Assembly: GCA_026991225.1 (NCBI GenBank)
Contig: JALXCB010000179.1
Coordinates: 1 to 35,292, forward strand
Direction of reading: 5' to 3'
Length of the DNA stretch: 35,292 bases
Origin: Anaerolineae bacterium
GTDB lineage: Bacteria > Chloroflexota > Anaerolineae > J102
Shown: positions 2,465 through 9,957 of the stretch, one piece after another
Layout: every line of letters starts with the position of its first letter
Numbering within the stretch: the stretch's first letter is position 1
Program-made: the position numbers and the translations under genes
Notes under the pieces: model-generated
What the model was told of the DNA's origin: nothing
What the model saw: the letters and a program-made list of their open reading frames with translations, nothing else
Database searches by the model: none

Positions 2465-2611
2465 GTAACTGCTAAAGCGCGGCGCCACTTTTTGCCACGA
2501 AGACACGAAGAGGACGAAGGCACGAAGCCTTTTCCCATATTTTTCTTCGTGTCTTCGCAAAACTTCGAGCCTTCGTGGCTTCTTGCGGCCTAAAGTCGAT
2601 GACGTTAGCAG
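2465..2611. mobile_element. MITE-like insertion with 12-bp flanking direct repeats
   Basis: The 12-mer TTCCGACTTCCC occurs at 2453-2464 and again at 2612-2623. Between the copies lies about 147 bp whose ends contain the inverted pair AACTGCTAA (2467-2475) and TTAGCAGTT (2605-2613). Inside are larger inverted arms rich in CACGAAG / CTTCGTG, roughly 2494-2527 and 2544-2579. Short length, no coding capacity, nested palindromes and flanking duplication fit a non-autonomous mobile element or REP-type palindrome. It sits between the arsR promoter and the arsR start. Confidence 0.6.
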
Positions 2612-2628
2612 TTCCGACTTCCCTCGAT

Positions 2629-3024
2629 ATGCCTGACGACATCTCACCCATGCCCACCGACGCCCTCGAAGGACGCCTGACCCTGTGCGCAGATGATCAC
2701 TCGGCCGAAAGTCTCGCTGAGGCGACGGCCGAATTGCTCATCGATTCCGACACCGCGTTCCGGGTGGCGGAGCTGTTCAAGGCCCTTTCCGATCCCACCC
2801 GGGTGCGGATCATCGGGCTGCTGGCCCATGCCGAGCTCTGTGTGGGCGATCTCGCCCGTATCCTGGGCATGACCCAACCCGCGATCTCCCATCAATTGCG
2901 GGTGCTGCGCAACCTGCGCATCGTGCGGTACCGCAAGCAGGGCCGCCACGTCTACTATACCCTCATGGACGAGCACATCCATGATCTCTTCGACCAGGGC
3001 CTGGCCCACGTCCGCTTTGGCTGA
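2629..3024 (+). CDS. SmtB-like ArsR-family metal-sensing repressor
   Basis: A winged-helix repressor of 131 residues, closely resembling SmtB/ZiaR. The metal-family core ELCVGDLA is at residues 69-76, the recognition helix around PAISHQLRVLRNL at 84-96, and the wing RKQGRHVYY at 102-110. The alpha-5 metal site keeps D114, H116 and H127, but the usual last glutamate is replaced by F130. An N-terminal C20 and H24 could contribute ligands, and C71 lies in the alpha-3 position. This predicts release from DNA on binding zinc, cobalt or cadmium-like ions. Longer starts at 2575 and 2599 lie in the inserted element, so ATG 2629 is preferred; no clear Shine-Dalgarno is seen. It heads a locus with a methyltransferase and a metal ATPase. 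Confidence 0.9.
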   Translation: MPDDISPMPTDALEGRLTLCADDHSAESLAEATAELLIDSDTAFRVAELFKALSDPTRVRIIGLLAHAELCVGDLARILGMTQPAISHQLRVLRNLRIVRYRKQGRHVYYTLMDEHIHDLFDQGLAHVRFG

Positions 3025-3043
3025 CGCCGCGTTTTTTATTTGA

Positions 3044-3072
3044 TTATTTCCATAAATAAGTGTTCATATAAT
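3044..3072 (+). promoter_or_regulatory. Promoter upstream of the methyltransferase gene
   Basis: A perfect -10 box TATAAT lies at 3067-3072. The -35 region is weak: TTATTT at 3044-3049 gives a 17-bp spacer, while TTGATT at 3040-3045 would give 21 bp. The spacer contains operator 2. Transcription would start near 3079, ahead of a GGAGAG ribosome binding site at 3086 and the ATG at 3101. Confidence 0.6.
3051..3070 (-). promoter_or_regulatory. Proposed ArsR/SmtB operator 2
   Basis: Read on the minus strand this is TATATGAACACTTATTTATG, matching operator 1 at 17 of 20 positions. The TGAACA-x-TTATT core is very close to SmtB-family sites. It fills the spacer of the second promoter and touches its -10 box, a classic repressor position. 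The match of two sites flanking the same regulator gene makes chance unlikely. Confidence 0.7.
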
Positions 3073-3100
3073 CATTTATTTTGATGGAGAGCGGGTTCCC

Positions 3101-3649
3101 ATGCTTGTTCAATTCCTGTTTTACGCCGCCATCCTCATCGGTTACGCATACATGCTGTTGCTCATCTGGTCCATCCTTCGCCCTCGACGCCGCATCTGGC
3201 CTCCGGGCGCGGTTTCCTGGAAGCTCTATCTCATCTGGGGGATGTTCTACCTGGGTGCGGGACTAACCGTAGCGCTGATGGTCCTCGATTGGAGTACGTG
3301 GACTATCCCGGCCGAGATCCGTGTCGCCATCGGCGTCCCCCTGACGCTGTTGGGGGCGGGCCTGGTGATCTGGGGCGTTCGCACCCTGGGCCTGGAAAAC
3401 ACCCACGGCATCCGGGATCGGTTCGTCATCAGCGGGCCCTATCGGTTCACCCGCAATCCCCAATACCTGGGCGATATCATTCTGTTCACGGGCCTCATCC
3501 TCATCGCCAATTCGGCCCGCGTCACCGTCATACTCTTGCTGTTTGTCTTCAGCTTCATCCTGTTCCCCCTGACCGAAGAGCCCTGGCTGGAGGAGCAATA
3601 TGGCGAAGATTACCTTCGCTACAAAAACCAGGCTCCGAGATTTCTGTAA
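3101..3649 (+). CDS. Isoprenylcysteine carboxyl methyltransferase-family membrane protein
   Basis: A 182-residue integral membrane protein with about four to five hydrophobic segments. The C-terminal half has the ICMT/PEMT-family cofactor region: GPYRFTRNPQYLGD at about residues 111-124, then a hydrophobic segment and EEPWLEEQYGEDYLRYK near the end. Bacterial members are SAM-dependent methyltransferases of mostly unknown substrate and are often next to heavy-metal resistance genes, as here between arsR and a metal P-type ATPase. A GGAGAG ribosome binding site lies at suitable distance from the ATG. Control by the upstream ArsR is inferred from operator 2. Its role in metal resistance cannot be read from sequence. 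Confidence 0.85.
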   Translation: MLVQFLFYAAILIGYAYMLLLIWSILRPRRRIWPPGAVSWKLYLIWGMFYLGAGLTVALMVLDWSTWTIPAEIRVAIGVPLTLLGAGLVIWGVRTLGLENTHGIRDRFVISGPYRFTRNPQYLGDIILFTGLILIANSARVTVILLLFVFSFILFPLTEEPWLEEQYGEDYLRYKNQAPRFL

Positions 3650-3676
3650 TCGTCTGCTCCGTAAATAACGTTGGCC

Positions 3677-3782
3677 CTGCCTGCCAAAAATCGCCAAGCC
3701 AAGGTTGGGCGAGGCGGCAACCGACGTGATGCGTGATGCGTCATCCGTGAGGTCCTTACGCATCACGCATTACGCATTACGT
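3677..3782 (-). repeat. Composite intergenic repeat, copy A
   Basis: An inverted repeat with arms built from CGTGATGCGTGATGCGT and its complement occupies 3725-3782, with a CGTGAGGTCCTTACG-like centre. To its left, on the minus strand, is the module GCCCAACCTTGGCTTGGCGA. Related units occur near 13629, 20590, 22251, 24571, 26646 and 31638. It fills most of the gap between the methyltransferase and ATPase genes. I see no third ArsR operator in this gap. Confidence 0.8.
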
Positions 3783-3853
3783 GCTCGGCTCCCCGCGCCC
3801 GCTAGACATGTTCGCCCGCATCTGCGTTCCCATTTTCGTCCTCAAAATCCATC

Positions 3854-6232
3854 ATGACCGAAAAACTACAACTCGACCTCACCCTGCTTTTGCCCGAGAT
3901 GGAGGACGGCGACGCCTGCGCGTCACTCCTCACCGAAGAATTGGAGAGCACCCGCGGCGTCTCCAAAGCCCACATCGTGCGAGAGGATGGCGTAGCCCGT
4001 CTCTGCCTGCACTACGACCCCAATCTGGTTTCCCTGAGCAAGATCGAGCGCCTGGCCCGTGACGCGGGCGCTCGCGTCACCGACCGCTACCGCCACGAAA
4101 CCATCCCCCTGGGCCGCATTCCCTCCGCCGACGTCGCTGACACCCTGACGAAGGCTCTGGAGGCGCTGCCAGGGATGCTCCATGCCCATGTGAATTATGC
4201 CGCGGGCGTGGCTTATGCGGCCTATGACAGCGAGCAGATCAGCCGGGCCGATATCGAAGCCGCCCTGGGGGAGATGGGCTATCGCCCGGCGACGGAGGCT
4301 GCGCCCGAAAAAGACCATGACCACGGCAGCGCGCCCGCGTTCCTGCCCCACTGGATGCAGGAGCGGTGGACGCTGATTTTGGTGGGGCTGGCAGGCGTTT
4401 TTCTGATCATCGGCTGGGCGGGCGAGCGCTGGCTTGGACTGCCCGCGAACGTCGCCCTGGTTTTCTATATCCTCTCCTACATCGCCGGTGGCTATGACAT
4501 CGCCACCCACGCCATCCCGGCCCTGTTCCGCGGCAGGTTCGACACCGACGTGCTTATGCTGGCCGCGGCTGCGGGCGCAGCCATTCTCGGGGAATGGGCC
4601 GAGGGCGCGTTCCTGCTCTTCCTCTTCAGCCTGGGCCACGCGGGCGAGCATTACGCGCTGGATCGGGCCCGCGACGCCGTCAACGCGCTGGGGAAGCTCA
4701 TGCCCAAGACCGCGCGGGTGAAGCGCGGCGATGAGATCGTCGAGATTCCGGTGGCGCAGGTGCGCATCGGCGATATTGTCGTGGTGCGGCCCGGCGACCG
4801 CATTCCGGTGGATGGCGAGGTCGTGAGCGGCGCGGGATCGGTGGATCAGAGCCCCATCACGGGCGAGAGCGTGCCCGTCCCCAAAGCGCCGGGCGACGAG
4901 GTCTTCGCCGGGACCATCAATCAGGAGGCGGCGCTGGACATTCGGGTGACGAAACTGGCCCGGGATAACACCCTGAATCGGGTGATGCAGATGGTGGCCG
5001 AGGCCCAGAGCCAGCAAAGTCCCACCCAGCGCTTTACCCAGCGCTTCACGGCCAAATTCGTGCCCGCAGTACTCATCTTCGTGGCCCTGGTCATCGTCGT
5101 GCCGCCATTGGTGGGATGGATGACGTGGGAGGAAAGTCTCTATCGGGGCATGTTGCTGCTGGTGGCATCCTCTCCCTGCGCCCTGGCCATTGGCACGCCC
5201 GCGACGGTGCTGGCGGGCATCGCCCAGGCCGCACGCAGCGGCGTGCTCATCAAAGGCGGCGTCCATCTCGAAAACCTGGGCATGGTCAAGGTCATGGCCT
5301 TCGACAAAACCGGTACCCTGACCCAGGGCAAATTCCAGATCACCGACATCATCCCACTGAACGGCGTCGGCCCGGACGACGCGTTAAGCCTGGCCGCGGC
5401 CGTGGAGCAGCAATCCAACCATCCTCTGGCCCGAGCCGTGGTGGAAGCGGCCCAGGCCCGGAGGCTGGATCCGCCCCTGGCCGCGGACGTGGAGAATCTG
5501 GCAGGCAAAGGCTTGCGCAGTCTGGTGGATGGCAAACCCGTGCTGGTGGGCTCCCCTGCGCTGATTCAAGAGGCGAATGGCCGCGTCTGGAATGAGGATA
5601 TGGCCGCGTTGCTGAACGAACTGGAAGCCCAGGGCAAGACGACCATCTGGGTGCAGGCGGATGGCCGGATCATCGGCGTGCTGGCTCTGGCGGATACGCC
5701 CCGACCGGGCGTGCGCGGGGTTATGGAACGCCTGCGCAAGCTGGGCATCCAGCGACTGGTCATGCTCACGGGCGACCACGAGCGGGCCGCGCGGAAGATC
5801 GCCCGCGAGGTGGGCGTCACCGATGTGCGGGCGGAGTTGCTGCCCGAAGATAAGTTGCGAGCCATCCAGGCGCTGGAGGCGGAGTTCGGGCCGGTGGCCA
5901 TGGTGGGCGATGGCGTGAACGATGCGCCGGCGTTGGCGACCGCGACCGTGGGCGTCGCCATGGGCGCGGCGGGCACAGCCGTGGCTCTGGAGACCGCGGA
6001 TGTGGCCCTCATGGCCGACGACCTGACCCAACTGCCTTTCGCCGTGGGCCTGAGCCGGGCCAGCCGCCGCATCATCGTACAGAATCTGGCTGTCTCCCTG
6101 GGCGTCATCTTCCTGTTGATTGGAGCGTCGGTGGCGGGCGTGGTGGCCCTCAGCGGCGCAGTCGTGCTGCACGAGGGCAGCACCATCATCGTCGTGCTCA
6201 ACGCCCTGCGTTTGCTGCGCTATTCGGATTGA
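3854..6232 (+). CDS. P1B-4-type heavy-metal-translocating P-type ATPase
   Basis: A 792-residue membrane pump that would export divalent metal using ATP. Catalytic motifs are complete: TGES at 336-339 (actuator), DKTGT with the phosphorylated D484, and GDGVNDAP with D686 and D690. The transport site has SPC at 440-442 rather than CPC, and HEGST at 773-777. That pair marks the P1B-4 subgroup, with cobalt, zinc or ferrous iron as known substrates. Unusually, the N-terminus carries two ferredoxin-like heavy-metal-domain repeats (about 4-75 and 82-148) that have lost the CxxC pair; only a lone C22 remains at the first site. A short Asp/His run (154-157) follows. The gene lies downstream of arsR and the methyltransferase in the same direction and ends at a strong terminator. 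Confidence 0.93.
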   Translation: MTEKLQLDLTLLLPEMEDGDACASLLTEELESTRGVSKAHIVREDGVARLCLHYDPNLVSLSKIERLARDAGARVTDRYRHETIPLGRIPSADVADTLTKALEALPGMLHAHVNYAAGVAYAAYDSEQISRADIEAALGEMGYRPATEAAPEKDHDHGSAPAFLPHWMQERWTLILVGLAGVFLIIGWAGERWLGLPANVALVFYILSYIAGGYDIATHAIPALFRGRFDTDVLMLAAAAGAAILGEWAEGAFLLFLFSLGHAGEHYALDRARDAVNALGKLMPKTARVKRGDEIVEIPVAQVRIGDIVVVRPGDRIPVDGEVVSGAGSVDQSPITGESVPVPKAPGDEVFAGTINQEAALDIRVTKLARDNTLNRVMQMVAEAQSQQSPTQRFTQRFTAKFVPAVLIFVALVIVVPPLVGWMTWEESLYRGMLLLVASSPCALAIGTPATVLAGIAQAARSGVLIKGGVHLENLGMVKVMAFDKTGTLTQGKFQITDIIPLNGVGPDDALSLAAAVEQQSNHPLARAVVEAAQARRLDPPLAADVENLAGKGLRSLVDGKPVLVGSPALIQEANGRVWNEDMAALLNELEAQGKTTIWVQADGRIIGVLALADTPRPGVRGVMERLRKLGIQRLVMLTGDHERAARKIAREVGVTDVRAELLPEDKLRAIQALEAEFGPVAMVGDGVNDAPALATATVGVAMGAAGTAVALETADVALMADDLTQLPFAVGLSRASRRIIVQNLAVSLGVIFLLIGASVAGVVALSGAVVLHEGSTIIVVLNALRLLRYSD

Positions 6233-6302: not shown

Positions 6303-7673
6303 TTATTGCGTTCCTTCGGCGAGCAGCGAGTCGAGAACCTTTTGGAACGCGTCATAGGGTCGGGCGCCGCTGATCATCTGCCCGTTGATGAAGAAAGATG
6401 GCGTGCCGGTGACGCCCGCGCGGACCCCCTCATCCAGGTCGGCGGCCACCTCATCCGTATATTTGCCGCTGTCCAGACAATCGTTGAATGCGTCCATGTC
6501 CAACCCCAGCTCCTGGGCATAGCCCTTGAAGATGGTCATAGCATCCGGGTTCTTGTTCCAGTCGGGCTGTTGGCCCTGGAACAGGCGGTCGTGCATCTCC
6601 CAATAGCGTCCCTGATCCCCGGCGCATTCCGCGGCCTCCGCGGCTTTGGGCGCTTGCGGGTGGATCTGGGTGATGGGGAAGTCCTTGAACACGTAAAAGA
6701 CCTTGCCCGTCTCGACATAATTCTTTTTGACTTGCTCCAGCGTGTTGTTGAAGTAGCGCAGGCAGAAGGGGCACTGGTAGTCGGAGAATTCGACCATGGT
6801 GATGGGCGCGTTGGGGTCGCCCATCACCGCGTAGGTTTCGGGTTCGAAATCGAGGTCGGGCGTGGGCTCGGGCGTGGGGAGAGCGACGCCCGCGGGCAGT
6901 TCGCCACCCTGGGCCTCGGCCAGGGCCGCATCGACGATCTGCAGGAACTGGTCCTTGGGCAGGAGTCCGCCGATGATGCGCCCGTTGATGAAGAAGGTGG
7001 GCGTGCCGCGAGTGCCCCAGCGACGGCCTTCGTCGAAGTCCTCCTGAATGCGGGGCCGCGGGGTTTGGGCGTCGAAGCAGGCGTCGAAGGCTGCGCCGTC
7101 CAGGCCCAGGTCGCGGGCGGCCTGCTTCAGCGCGTCTGGGCCGATACTGCCTGCGTTTTGGAAGAGCCAGTCGTGCATCTCCCAGAATTTGCCCTGGTCG
7201 GCCGCGCATTGGGCCGCGAAGCTGCCCATGACCGATTTCTGGCCGAGCACGGGGAATTCTTTGTAGACGAAGTAGACCTTGCCGGTCTGAATGTACGCTT
7301 CATCCAGAAGCGGGGCCACTTCGGAGAAGAAGCGGCCACAGTAGGGTCAGGTGTAGTCCGACCATTCGTAGATGACGACGGGCGCGTCGGGATTGCCTTT
7401 GGAGCTGGCCGGGCGGGGCGCAGGGTCGAAGCCGTTGACCAGAGGCGGGAGGACGAGGTTGGGCGCGGCCGCGGGGGGAGGGTCAGAGGGAGTCGCCGGG
7501 GGCGTGGCCTGACTGGGGGATGGCGCGGCGTCCGCAGCCACCGCTGTGAGGGTGGCTTCCACGGCCGCGGCCACGGCGTCGGGATTCTCAGCCTGGGGAG
7601 CGGCGCAGGCGCTGAGGATGATGGCCGCGGTCAATAGCAACAGCGAAAGGGCGAGGATGCGGTTTCGTGTCAT
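6303..7673 (-). CDS. Double DsbA-like lipoprotein with in-frame TGA at the active site (candidate selenoprotein)
   Basis: A 456-codon frame interrupted only by TGA at 7347-7349 (codon 109). The start is a lipoprotein signal peptide, lipobox LSAC with C23, after ATG 7673, which has a GGAG ribosome binding site. A Pro/Ala-rich linker leads to domain 1, EWSDYT-(TGA)-PYCGRFF, and then domain 2, EFSDYQCPFCLRYF with C301 and C304. Both have the DsbA-family helical insert and a cis-proline GTPxFFINGR/Q loop. The TGA falls exactly on the first cysteine of the CxxC motif, so UPYC (selenocysteine) is the simplest functional reading. The alternatives are a nonsense mutation or a sequence error. The protein would act outside the membrane as a thiol-disulfide oxidoreductase or reductase. 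It follows a SHOCT gene and the two-component genes on the same strand and ends at the terminator at 6246-6275. Confidence 0.85.
7314..7337 (-). promoter_or_regulatory. Hairpin just downstream of the in-frame TGA (possible SECIS-like element)
   Basis: In the mRNA sense, GGCCGCTTC and GAAGTGGCC form a 9-bp stem with one G-U pair around a TTCTCC loop. The stem begins 10 bases and the loop 19 bases after the TGA, within the spacing seen for bacterial SECIS elements. The loop lacks the guanine that is usual at its first two positions, so this is weaker than a textbook element. The stem is also part of the coding sequence. Confidence 0.4.
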
Positions 7674-7725: not shown

Positions 7726-8019
7726 TCAATAAGCGAGGATATCCGCTTTCATGGATTCGTACTCCTCTTTGGTGATCTCCCCGCGGGCGTAGCGTTTCTT
7801 GAGGATATCCAGAGCGGTTTCTTCCTGAGTGAAGGCGGCGGTTTGCGCGTTCGGGTCGAGAGGCATCCGGCAAGGCGCGTTGTGATGGGCGTTGGCGGGC
7901 GGGGTGGAAAGGGGCTTGGGAAACAGCCAACTGATCATGGCCACGGCCGCGGCGATGATCAAAATGAGAAAGAAAAGCATAAAAAGCAAGCCAAAGGCGC
8001 CAAGGCCCATCATCACCAT
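7726..8019 (-). CDS. Membrane protein with C-terminal SHOCT domain (1)
   Basis: A 97-residue protein: a hydrophobic segment at about 5-35 (a single strong membrane span), a short linker, and a C-terminal SHOCT domain, ALDILKKRYARGEITKEEYE. SHOCT is a short alpha-helical oligomerisation module seen at the ends of many membrane or stress proteins. The ATG at 8019 has an excellent AGGAGG ribosome binding site; longer reading from upstream overlaps the kinase gene and is rejected. It is paralogous to the protein at 10192-10431. It lies between the histidine kinase and the Dsb-like gene, all in one direction, with phased direct repeats directly upstream. Confidence 0.85.
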   Translation of the reverse strand: MVMMGLGAFGLLFMLFFLILIIAAAVAMISWLFPKPLSTPPANAHHNAPCRMPLDPNAQTAAFTQEETALDILKKRYARGEITKEEYESMKADILAY

Positions 8020-8087
8020 GGTAAAATCCTCCTGAAACAGATCTGCGGGGCTCCTGTCTGGGTGTGCCCCAGTTTCGCAAGATCGTA

Positions 8088-8125
8088 TGACGCGCGTTTG
8101 ACGGAAATATGACGATTTGATGAAG
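8088..8125 (-). promoter_or_regulatory. Four 11-bp-phased response-regulator half-sites upstream of SHOCT gene 1
   Basis: Read on the minus strand, CTTCA, CGTCA, CGTCA and CGTCA occur at exact 11-bp steps (plus-strand starts 8121, 8110, 8099 and 8088). Phased direct repeats one helical turn apart are typical of OmpR/PhoB-family binding sites. The same pattern (TGTCA, TGTCA, CTTCA) precedes the paralogous SHOCT gene at 10192. The neighbouring response regulator is the likely binder. Confidence 0.7.
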
Positions 8126-8137
8126 ATTTTGGGCTCC

Positions 8138-9265
8138 TCAGCTACCCCGCTCTGCAATGGGCAGGGTGAACCCGAACTCGCTTCCTTTGCCCAACCCCTC
8201 GCTCTTTGCCCAAATGCGGCCGCCGTGGGCCTCGACGATATATTTGGAGATGGTGAGCCCGATGCCGCTGCCCCCGCTGGCCCGGGCCCGGGATTTGTCC
8301 ACCCGGTAGAAGCGCTCGAAGATGTGAGGCAGGTCTTCGGGCGGGATGCCCCGGCCTGTGTCCCTGACCAGGAACTGGATGACGTCACCCGCGCGGCGGA
8401 CGGCCACCCACATCTCGCCGCCTAAGGGCGTGTATTGCAGAGCGTTGCCCAGGATGTTCACCAGCACCTGGGTGATGCGGGCGGGGTCCGCGTAAATGTC
8501 GGGCAGGTCGGGCGCAATGTTCACGTGCAGGGCCACGCCCTTATCGTGAAACTGCAACGCCAGCCGATCCACCACGCCCGACGCCAGGTCGGCGGGGTTG
8601 ACCCATTCGGGAAACATGGCCATCTCGCCTGCCTCCGCCCGGGAGAGCTCCTGCAGGTCTTGCACCAATCGTTGCAGGCGCAGCACCTCGTTGTTCATGG
8701 TCTGGAAAGTCGCGGGCTCGGGCGGAAGGACGCCATCGGTGAGGGCTTCGAGCATGGTGCGCAGATTCGTCAGGGGCGTGCGCAGTTCGTGGGCCACGTC
8801 CGCGATGAGGTTGAGACGCCGCTGCTCTGTGAGCTCCAGCTCCTCCGCCATCTGATTGAAGCTTTCGGCCAGAGCGCCCAGCTCATCCTCGCTGACCACG
8901 GCCACGCGGCGGTTGAAATGCCCCGCCGCGATCTCGCGGCTGGCCCGCATCATGCTGCGGATGGGCTGCACGATGCGCTGCGATGTAAACAGGCTGACCG
9001 CGATGGCCGCGATGAGGGACACGATGACCGCGGTGGTCGTGATCTCATTGATGGCGCGGATGAAGTTCACGCGCAGGTCTTCGGCCAGGCCCGGATCCGA
9101 GCCCAGATGCGCCTCCATGCGTTCGATGTGCCGCTGGATGGCCGCGGGCGTCTGAATTTGCACCGCGCCCGCCAGCACAACGACGCCCACCAGGATGACG
9201 ATGAGATAGGAGAGGAAAAGTTTGGCGCTGAGACTGCGCTTGAAAAAGGTCAGCAGCTTCCTCAT
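8138..9265 (-). CDS. Sensor histidine kinase, BaeS-like
   Basis: A 375-residue membrane kinase. Two membrane spans at about 15-36 and 75-96 enclose a short outside loop of about 40 residues, followed by a HAMP domain (about 95-147), a HisKA dimerisation domain with the phosphorylated H159 in [13 protein letters not shown], and a HATPase domain with N box [22 protein letters not shown], an F box around ERFYR and GSGIGLTI. It would autophosphorylate and transfer phosphate to the response regulator encoded just upstream, with which it overlaps by 4 bases (ATGA). The tiny sensor loop suggests sensing in or near the membrane, as for BaeS or CpxA-type envelope-stress sensors; the signal itself is unknown. 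Confidence 0.93.
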
Positions 9266-9957
9266 TCCGAACCATCCTCGAAGCGATAGCCCACCCCGCG
9301 CACGGTGGCGATGCGCTTGCCCGCGCCGCCGGCGGCGTCCAGCTTCCTGCGCAGGCGACCGATATGGACGTCCACCACCCGGTCATCGCCATAATAATCG
9401 TAGCCCCACACCTGCTCGATGAGCTGATCCCGGCTCAGCACCCGGCCATGGTGGCGAGCCAGGGCCAGCAGCAGATCGAATTCGATAGGCGTCAGGTCGA
9501 TGAGCTGGCCCGCGACCAGCACCTTACGGGCCGCAGGGTCGATGCGAATATCGTCGAAGATCAGGGGCGTCTCCTCGTCGCTGGTCCCTCCGCCCCGGCG
9601 CAGCATGGCTTCCACCCGGGCCACCAACTCTCTCGGGCTGAAGGGCTTGGTGAGATAGTCGTCCGCACCCATCTTCAGGCCCAGAATCTTGTCCATCTCC
9701 TCGGCGCGGGCGGAGAGCATCAGCACCCAGGCGTTGGACTCCTGCCGCAGACGGCGCAGCACCTCCAGCCCGTCCACCTCGGGCAGCATGATATCGAGAA
9801 CGATGAGGTCGGGCTTGAAGGCGCGGATGGATTGCAGGGCTGCAGCGCCGTCATTGGCGGTGTAGACGGTGTAGCCTTCCCGTTCCAGATAGGCGCGCAC
9901 GGTTTCCCGCACGGGCGCTTCGTCATCGACCACCAGGATCGTTGCGTTTTTGGTCAT
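9262..9957 (-). CDS. OmpR/PhoB-family response regulator
   Basis: A 231-residue DNA-binding regulator. The receiver domain (about 5-118) has the acidic pocket D11-D12, phosphoacceptor D55 in [10 protein letters not shown], and K104 in [10 protein letters not shown]. The C-terminal winged helix (about 130-228) has [14 protein letters not shown] and [13 protein letters not shown]. It is the first gene of the minus-strand unit and overlaps the kinase gene translationally. Its promoter (10002-10030) lies next to phased TGTCA repeats shared with the divergent SHOCT gene, so autoregulation is likely. Targets probably include both SHOCT genes and perhaps the Dsb-like lipoprotein. Confidence 0.95.

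Follow-up and report, generated by a model that had tools for sequence, protein, structure and literature searches.

The locus described here raises the question of whether a TGA triplet inside an otherwise open reading frame is read as selenocysteine (Sec) or terminates the protein. The window, i.e. the whole stretch of 35,292 nucleotides from an Anaerolineae bacterium that was analysed, carries on its minus strand a frame (6303-7673) that begins with ATG at 7673, ends with TAA at 6303-6305 and has the TGA at 7349-7347, seen as TCA on the plus strand, as its sole interruption. A first-pass annotation had noted that the frame continues on both sides of this codon, and the open stretch from ATG to TAA bears this out. 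With TGA taken as Sec (U), the product of 456 amino acids, Sec included, reads MTRNRILALSLLLLTAAIILSAC...EWSDYT-U-PYCGRFF...EFSDYQCPFCLRYF... and is laid out as a lipoprotein signal, a linker rich in Pro, Ala and Thr, and a pair of DsbA-like domains. The lipoprotein signal peptide (7605-7673, minus strand, like all features of the gene given below), read directly in MTRNRILALSLLLLTAAIILSAC, has the lipobox LSAC; similar lipoboxes are present in most homologues, and the protein is predicted to be anchored in the membrane.

The first DsbA-like domain (6915-7400) was delimited with Pfam and has a confident fold in the AlphaFold2 model. The TGA (7347-7349) occupies its first active-site position, corresponding to residue 113 of P0001 (109 if counted from Met), and the resolving cysteine of the resulting UPYC motif (7338-7340), C116, is invariant in alignment A2. 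The second domain (6330-6836), likewise supported by Pfam and the AlphaFold2 model, has a CPFC active site (6762-6773), of which both cysteines, C305 and C308, are invariant in 20 homologues. The contexts of the two sites, YEWSDYT-U-PYC in domain 1 and EFSDYQCPFC in domain 2, as well as the occurrence of TGC at the codon in two relatives, confirm the earlier alignment of the TGA with the first cysteine of CxxC. Over the whole protein, Pfam detected Thioredoxin_4 (E 3.1e-75) and DSBA (E 1.7e-38), each in two stretches, and both domains were confidently predicted by AlphaFold2 with a mean pLDDT of 83. A Foldseek search with this model retrieved single-domain DsbA structures (E about 1e-12 to 1e-11, TM to target 0.63-0.82) and no match aligning well across both domains. 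By its DSBA/Thioredoxin_4 fold and its UPYC the protein belongs with the DsbA-like selenoproteins, as recognized by PF01323 and UxxC.

The first-pass annotation had proposed a search of the same genome for selA, selB, selC (tRNA-Sec) and selD, and all four are present. The tRNA-Sec scores 75.5 bits, above the gathering score, and has a TCA anticodon; selA (E 2e-143), selB (E 3e-108), whose product carries the winged-helix domain SelB-wing_3 at its C-terminus, and selD (E 4e-106), with an in-frame TGA of its own, were likewise found. A search for formate dehydrogenase in the source genome yielded no further in-frame TGA. Among the 20 genomes of the family that were covered, an order-level search having given the same 20, tRNA-Sec and selD each turned up in 19 and selA in 18; not more than one of the three is missing from any genome, as expected from incomplete assemblies. 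Each of the 19 selD genes found in the order contains a TGA. In these genes (L020 and L174-L191) a SECIS-like hairpin lies distally, with its loop about 32 nt from the UGA and a small hairpin in front of it; the selD of one genome (G007, L187) has the loop CGUGU instead of GGUUC.

The draft state of the source genome (201 contigs) and the frequency of TGA as an ordinary stop, being the commonest one among the window's genes, would suit the view that the TGA is a true stop, introduced by a sequencing or assembly error or belonging to a decaying gene that yields a truncated lipoprotein. This is nevertheless very improbable. The identical TGA occurs at exactly the same codon in 12 tandem copies from 11 genomes, those of the source and of 10 related species, with protein identity down to 53%; downstream of it the frame stays open and domain 2 is strongly conserved, and the RNA constraint that follows the TGA disappears wherever TGC or TAY stands in its place. 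The conservation of the TGA thus refutes a true stop in practice. It was also worth considering that UGA is translated as another amino acid, either through a reassigned code or by programmed readthrough with Cys or Trp, since close relatives have Cys at this position. However, UGA ends 17 of 27 hand-picked ORFs of the window, the genome has a complete Sec machinery and a SECIS-like structure lies downstream, so that this explanation, too, has hardly any likelihood.

Comparison of homologues at the codon, which had been suggested as a check, gave TGC in two relatives (G018 and G019) beside the 12 copies with TGA. Since the TGA of the 12 copies is accompanied by Sec machinery and by relatives with TGC, the gene is to be regarded as a genuine selenoprotein gene and not as an error or a pseudogene; the proposal of a candidate selenoprotein therefore stands, with the machinery, a conserved RNA structure and the TGA in 11 separate genomes, which takes the place of read support for the codon, behind it. 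Within genus g9 the Sec version (G017) groups on the evolutionary tree with the Cys versions of G018 and G019, indicating that Sec and Cys have been exchanged inside one genus. Seven further copies, all of one genus, have Tyr at the Sec position (motif CDYxYPxC) and form a separate clade of paralogues with 100/100 support. In these paralogues, namely L044 (G000:C74:16218-17609) and its orthologues L034-L037, L042 and L043, the active-site Cys/Sec of domain 1 has been lost (CDYAYPGC/YPNC) and domain 2 still has CPFC or CPYC. A scan of 400 genomes of the phylum revealed, among the matches listed, no tandem Sec form outside the order; tandem Cys forms were found in other families (G390 and G163). 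Cys-only DsbA-like proteins with two or three domains are present in other groups (L157 of G390, L158 of G163, and L053 and L091 of Myxococcaceae).

Two hairpins, A and B, follow the UGA and together make up the consensus fold of the 12 Sec copies. Hairpin A (7314-7337), supported by covariation and by the minimum free energy structure, consists of 9 bp with a 6-nt loop (7328-7323) located 18 nt from the UGA. It is the stem that had been described in the first-pass annotation as a 9-bp stem 10 nt after the TGA with its loop at 19 nt, the loop lacking the usual early G; the positions (7337-7314) and the loop, UUCUCC, agree with that description. Hairpin B (7296-7312), which comes immediately behind A, was passed over in the first-pass annotation and was recognized by its conservation, has the sequence CGCUUC-UGGAU-GAAGCG, its loop (7306-7302) carrying G at position 2 and lying 40 nt from the UGA. 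For the 57 nt that follow the TGA the folding energy is -24.7 kcal/mol, with z -5.1 relative to dinucleotide shuffles, of which none of 200 was as good, so that the structure exceeds chance; 3 of 500 synonymous recodings folded equally well, several single sequences being only mildly unusual by the latter measure. A simple cross-repeat fold pairing CGCUUC with GAAGYG was rejected, as it falls short of A+B by 4-18 kcal/mol in 12/12 copies; in two of these (L031 and L041) a version of it with extra pairs slightly surpasses A+B in stability. An Rfam search of the gene region gave no match to a SECIS family, and a 12-bit lncRNA match obtained there is due to chance.

Across the 12 Sec copies 97% of the pairs of hairpin A are kept, and five of its nine pairs show changes on both sides; the covariation of the whole A+B structure was not reached by any of 500 shuffles. 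The loop of hairpin A varies freely (UUCUCC in the window; CACAGC, CAAAGU, CGUAGU and others elsewhere) and in nearly all copies has no G in its first two positions. Hairpin B is more conserved than A, its sequence CGCUUC-UGGAW-GAAGCG being exact in 12/12 Sec copies and present in no Cys or Tyr copy. When the 20 genomes were scanned for hairpin B with up to two mismatches allowed, only the 12 genes and one site in an unrelated frame were found. In the nine Cys/Tyr copies the pair of hairpins is not kept, and folding is no better than that of random synonymous recodings. Synonymous-codon identity at conserved residues among the 12 Sec copies reaches its gene-wide peak at codons 123-130 (0.956 against 0.363 expected; 0/5000 permutations), and 9 of 13 conserved columns within codons 118-131 have one and the same codon in every copy; outside this stretch the figure is 6 of 219 (Fisher p 7e-10). 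This synonymous constraint is selection on the RNA, and it stops at the end of hairpin B.

We consider the RNA element the most interesting part of the gene. The published bacterial model places the loop 16-37 nt from the UGA (bSECISearch model, restated in PMC13188914). Hairpin A, at 18 nt, falls within this range but begins its loop with two bases neither of which is G; hairpin B, with a UGGAU/UGGAA loop on 6 bp, fits the loop consensus N-G-[G/U]-N-N but lies at 40 nt. Like the consensus element, hairpin B is a stem-loop in the coding region after the UGA, and it differs in that the conserved, covarying hairpin A sits between it and the UGA. Other SECIS elements of the order have loop GGUUC and variants at a spacing of 32 in selD, and loop CGUGU at about 17 in genes of the NF041057 family. 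The elements of selD, those of NF041057 and hairpin B thus all have a loop of 5 nt, the second of which is G; hairpin A has no such loop. Since the loop rule is obeyed by hairpin B and other SECIS loops of the order bear the G, hairpin B is most likely the hairpin bound by SelB and hairpin A most likely a structured spacer holding B within reach of the ribosome. The former role is one that we infer, because the loop of B lies outside the published 16-37 nt.

The opposite assignment, in which hairpin A, in spite of its odd loop, is the functional SECIS of the selenoprotein gene and hairpin B an accessory stabilizer or an RNA with another role, draws on the standard spacing of A and its five covarying pairs, as well as on a review according to which a subset of bacterial SECIS elements breaks the model (PMC13188914). 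The loop of A, however, is variable and mostly without an early G whereas that of B is almost invariant, and both the selD and the NF041057 elements of this order have a G loop; the assignment therefore seems rather unlikely. The stem singled out in the first-pass annotation is real and covaries, but with the invariant G-loop hairpin B following it, it is probably neither the whole SECIS nor its SelB-binding part. We lean, with some reserve, towards a bipartite SECIS, composed of spacer A and the SelB-binding hairpin B at 40 nt from the UGA, as the signal driving the tandem Sec/Cys DsbA. If true, such an element would form a class that departs from the published spacing rule and finds a fainter parallel in the selD of the order. 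Because the gene exists there with Sec, with Cys and with Tyr, the order is a natural setting for testing at what distance from the UGA a hairpin can still be bound by SelB.

The protein is very probably an exported lipoprotein of tandem DsbA fold, the UGA of which is read as Sec by the genome's own machinery under the direction of hairpins A and B. Insertion of Sec at the UGA is almost certain in view of the TGA conservation, the machinery and the conserved covarying RNA. In the mechanism proposed, tRNA-Sec, SelA, SelB and SelD of the genome would decode the UGA at residue 109 and so give UPYC in domain 1. Sec would be brought to this codon by SelB, its winged-helix end presumably bound to the UGGAW loop of hairpin B. 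The resulting protein would be lipid-anchored and face outwards, domain 1 carrying a reactive selenol and domain 2 a pair of thiols. A selenenylsulfide formed in UPYC would allow domain 1 to exchange thiols and disulfides rapidly, and electrons may pass from one domain to the other. The most likely redox role is that of a selenenylsulfide-forming centre acting on extracytoplasmic disulfides.

On the opposite strand, the region adjoining the gene (2575-6232) encodes an ArsR-type regulator, a PEMT/ICMT-like methyltransferase and a P-type ATPase of the heavy-metal type. Upstream, on the same strand (7726-9957), there are a SHOCT-domain protein, a histidine kinase and a response regulator. The SHOCT protein and the histidine kinase are found beside the gene also in the nearest relative (L052) and only there, so that synteny points to no redox partner.

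The nearest named family is NF041057 (Rcas_1661 family thioredoxin-like (seleno)lipoprotein), described as 'DsbG-like' with UxxC in PMC13188914; no paper on 'Rcas_1661' came up in the literature. The protein shares with this family the export as a lipoprotein, the DsbA/Thioredoxin_4 fold, Sec as the first residue of UxxC and a common occurrence in Chloroflexota. Its score of 324.7 bits exceeds the family cut-off of 190 only through the summing of two domains, which individually score 157.3 and 162.8 bits, both under the cut-off. Members of NF041057 have one domain (247 positions), carry the motif DYSDFLUxxCR and possess a single SECIS hairpin, which is proximal and has CGUGU as its loop; the present gene has two domains, the motif YEWSDYTUPYC and two hairpins, and thus lies outside the single-domain form of about 250 amino acids with DYSDFLUxxC. 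A second conserved DsbA-like selenoprotein, a lipoprotein with a single domain and of the NF041057 type (DYSDFLUxxCR, loop CGUGU), is present in five genomes of the order (L095-L099 of G006, G002, G007, G018 and G017, respectively), and the frame directly downstream of it contains RICVFCGSNPG, resembling LOG-family proteins. Further single-domain DsbA-like genes of Chloroflexota (L045, L155, L156, L159-L163 and L165) have TGA in UPYC, UPGC, UPFC and similar motifs, and behind several of them there is a hairpin whose loop contains G.

The solved structures matched by the model, Corynebacterium diphtheriae TsdA/DsbA (7unn, 4pwp), Wolbachia alpha-DsbA1 (3f4r) and Bacillus BdbD (3eu3), resemble a single domain in fold, each covering one of the two. 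DsbA-like UxxC selenoproteins (PF01323) have been catalogued from the Sargasso Sea (PMC1088965), in GOS data as 'DsbA 1' (PMC2398784) and in a bacterial survey (PMC1794560), in accordance with the earlier statement that Sec is known at this site in thioredoxin-fold proteins. The catalogued proteins have in common with the present one the DsbA fold and Sec in place of the first CxxC cysteine, but the passages concerned in the three catalogues mention no tandem Sec/Cys form. The combination of a Sec-type and a Cys-type domain in one lipoprotein, already called unusual in the first-pass annotation, thus looks new as far as these passages go, as does the two-hairpin signal; the DsbA-like UxxC itself is known. 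Gene callers for which UGA is always a stop would break the gene in two and conceal its active site. To the DsbA-like selenoproteins already catalogued, the gene adds a well-supported architecture in which a Sec and a Cys DsbA domain share one lipoprotein.
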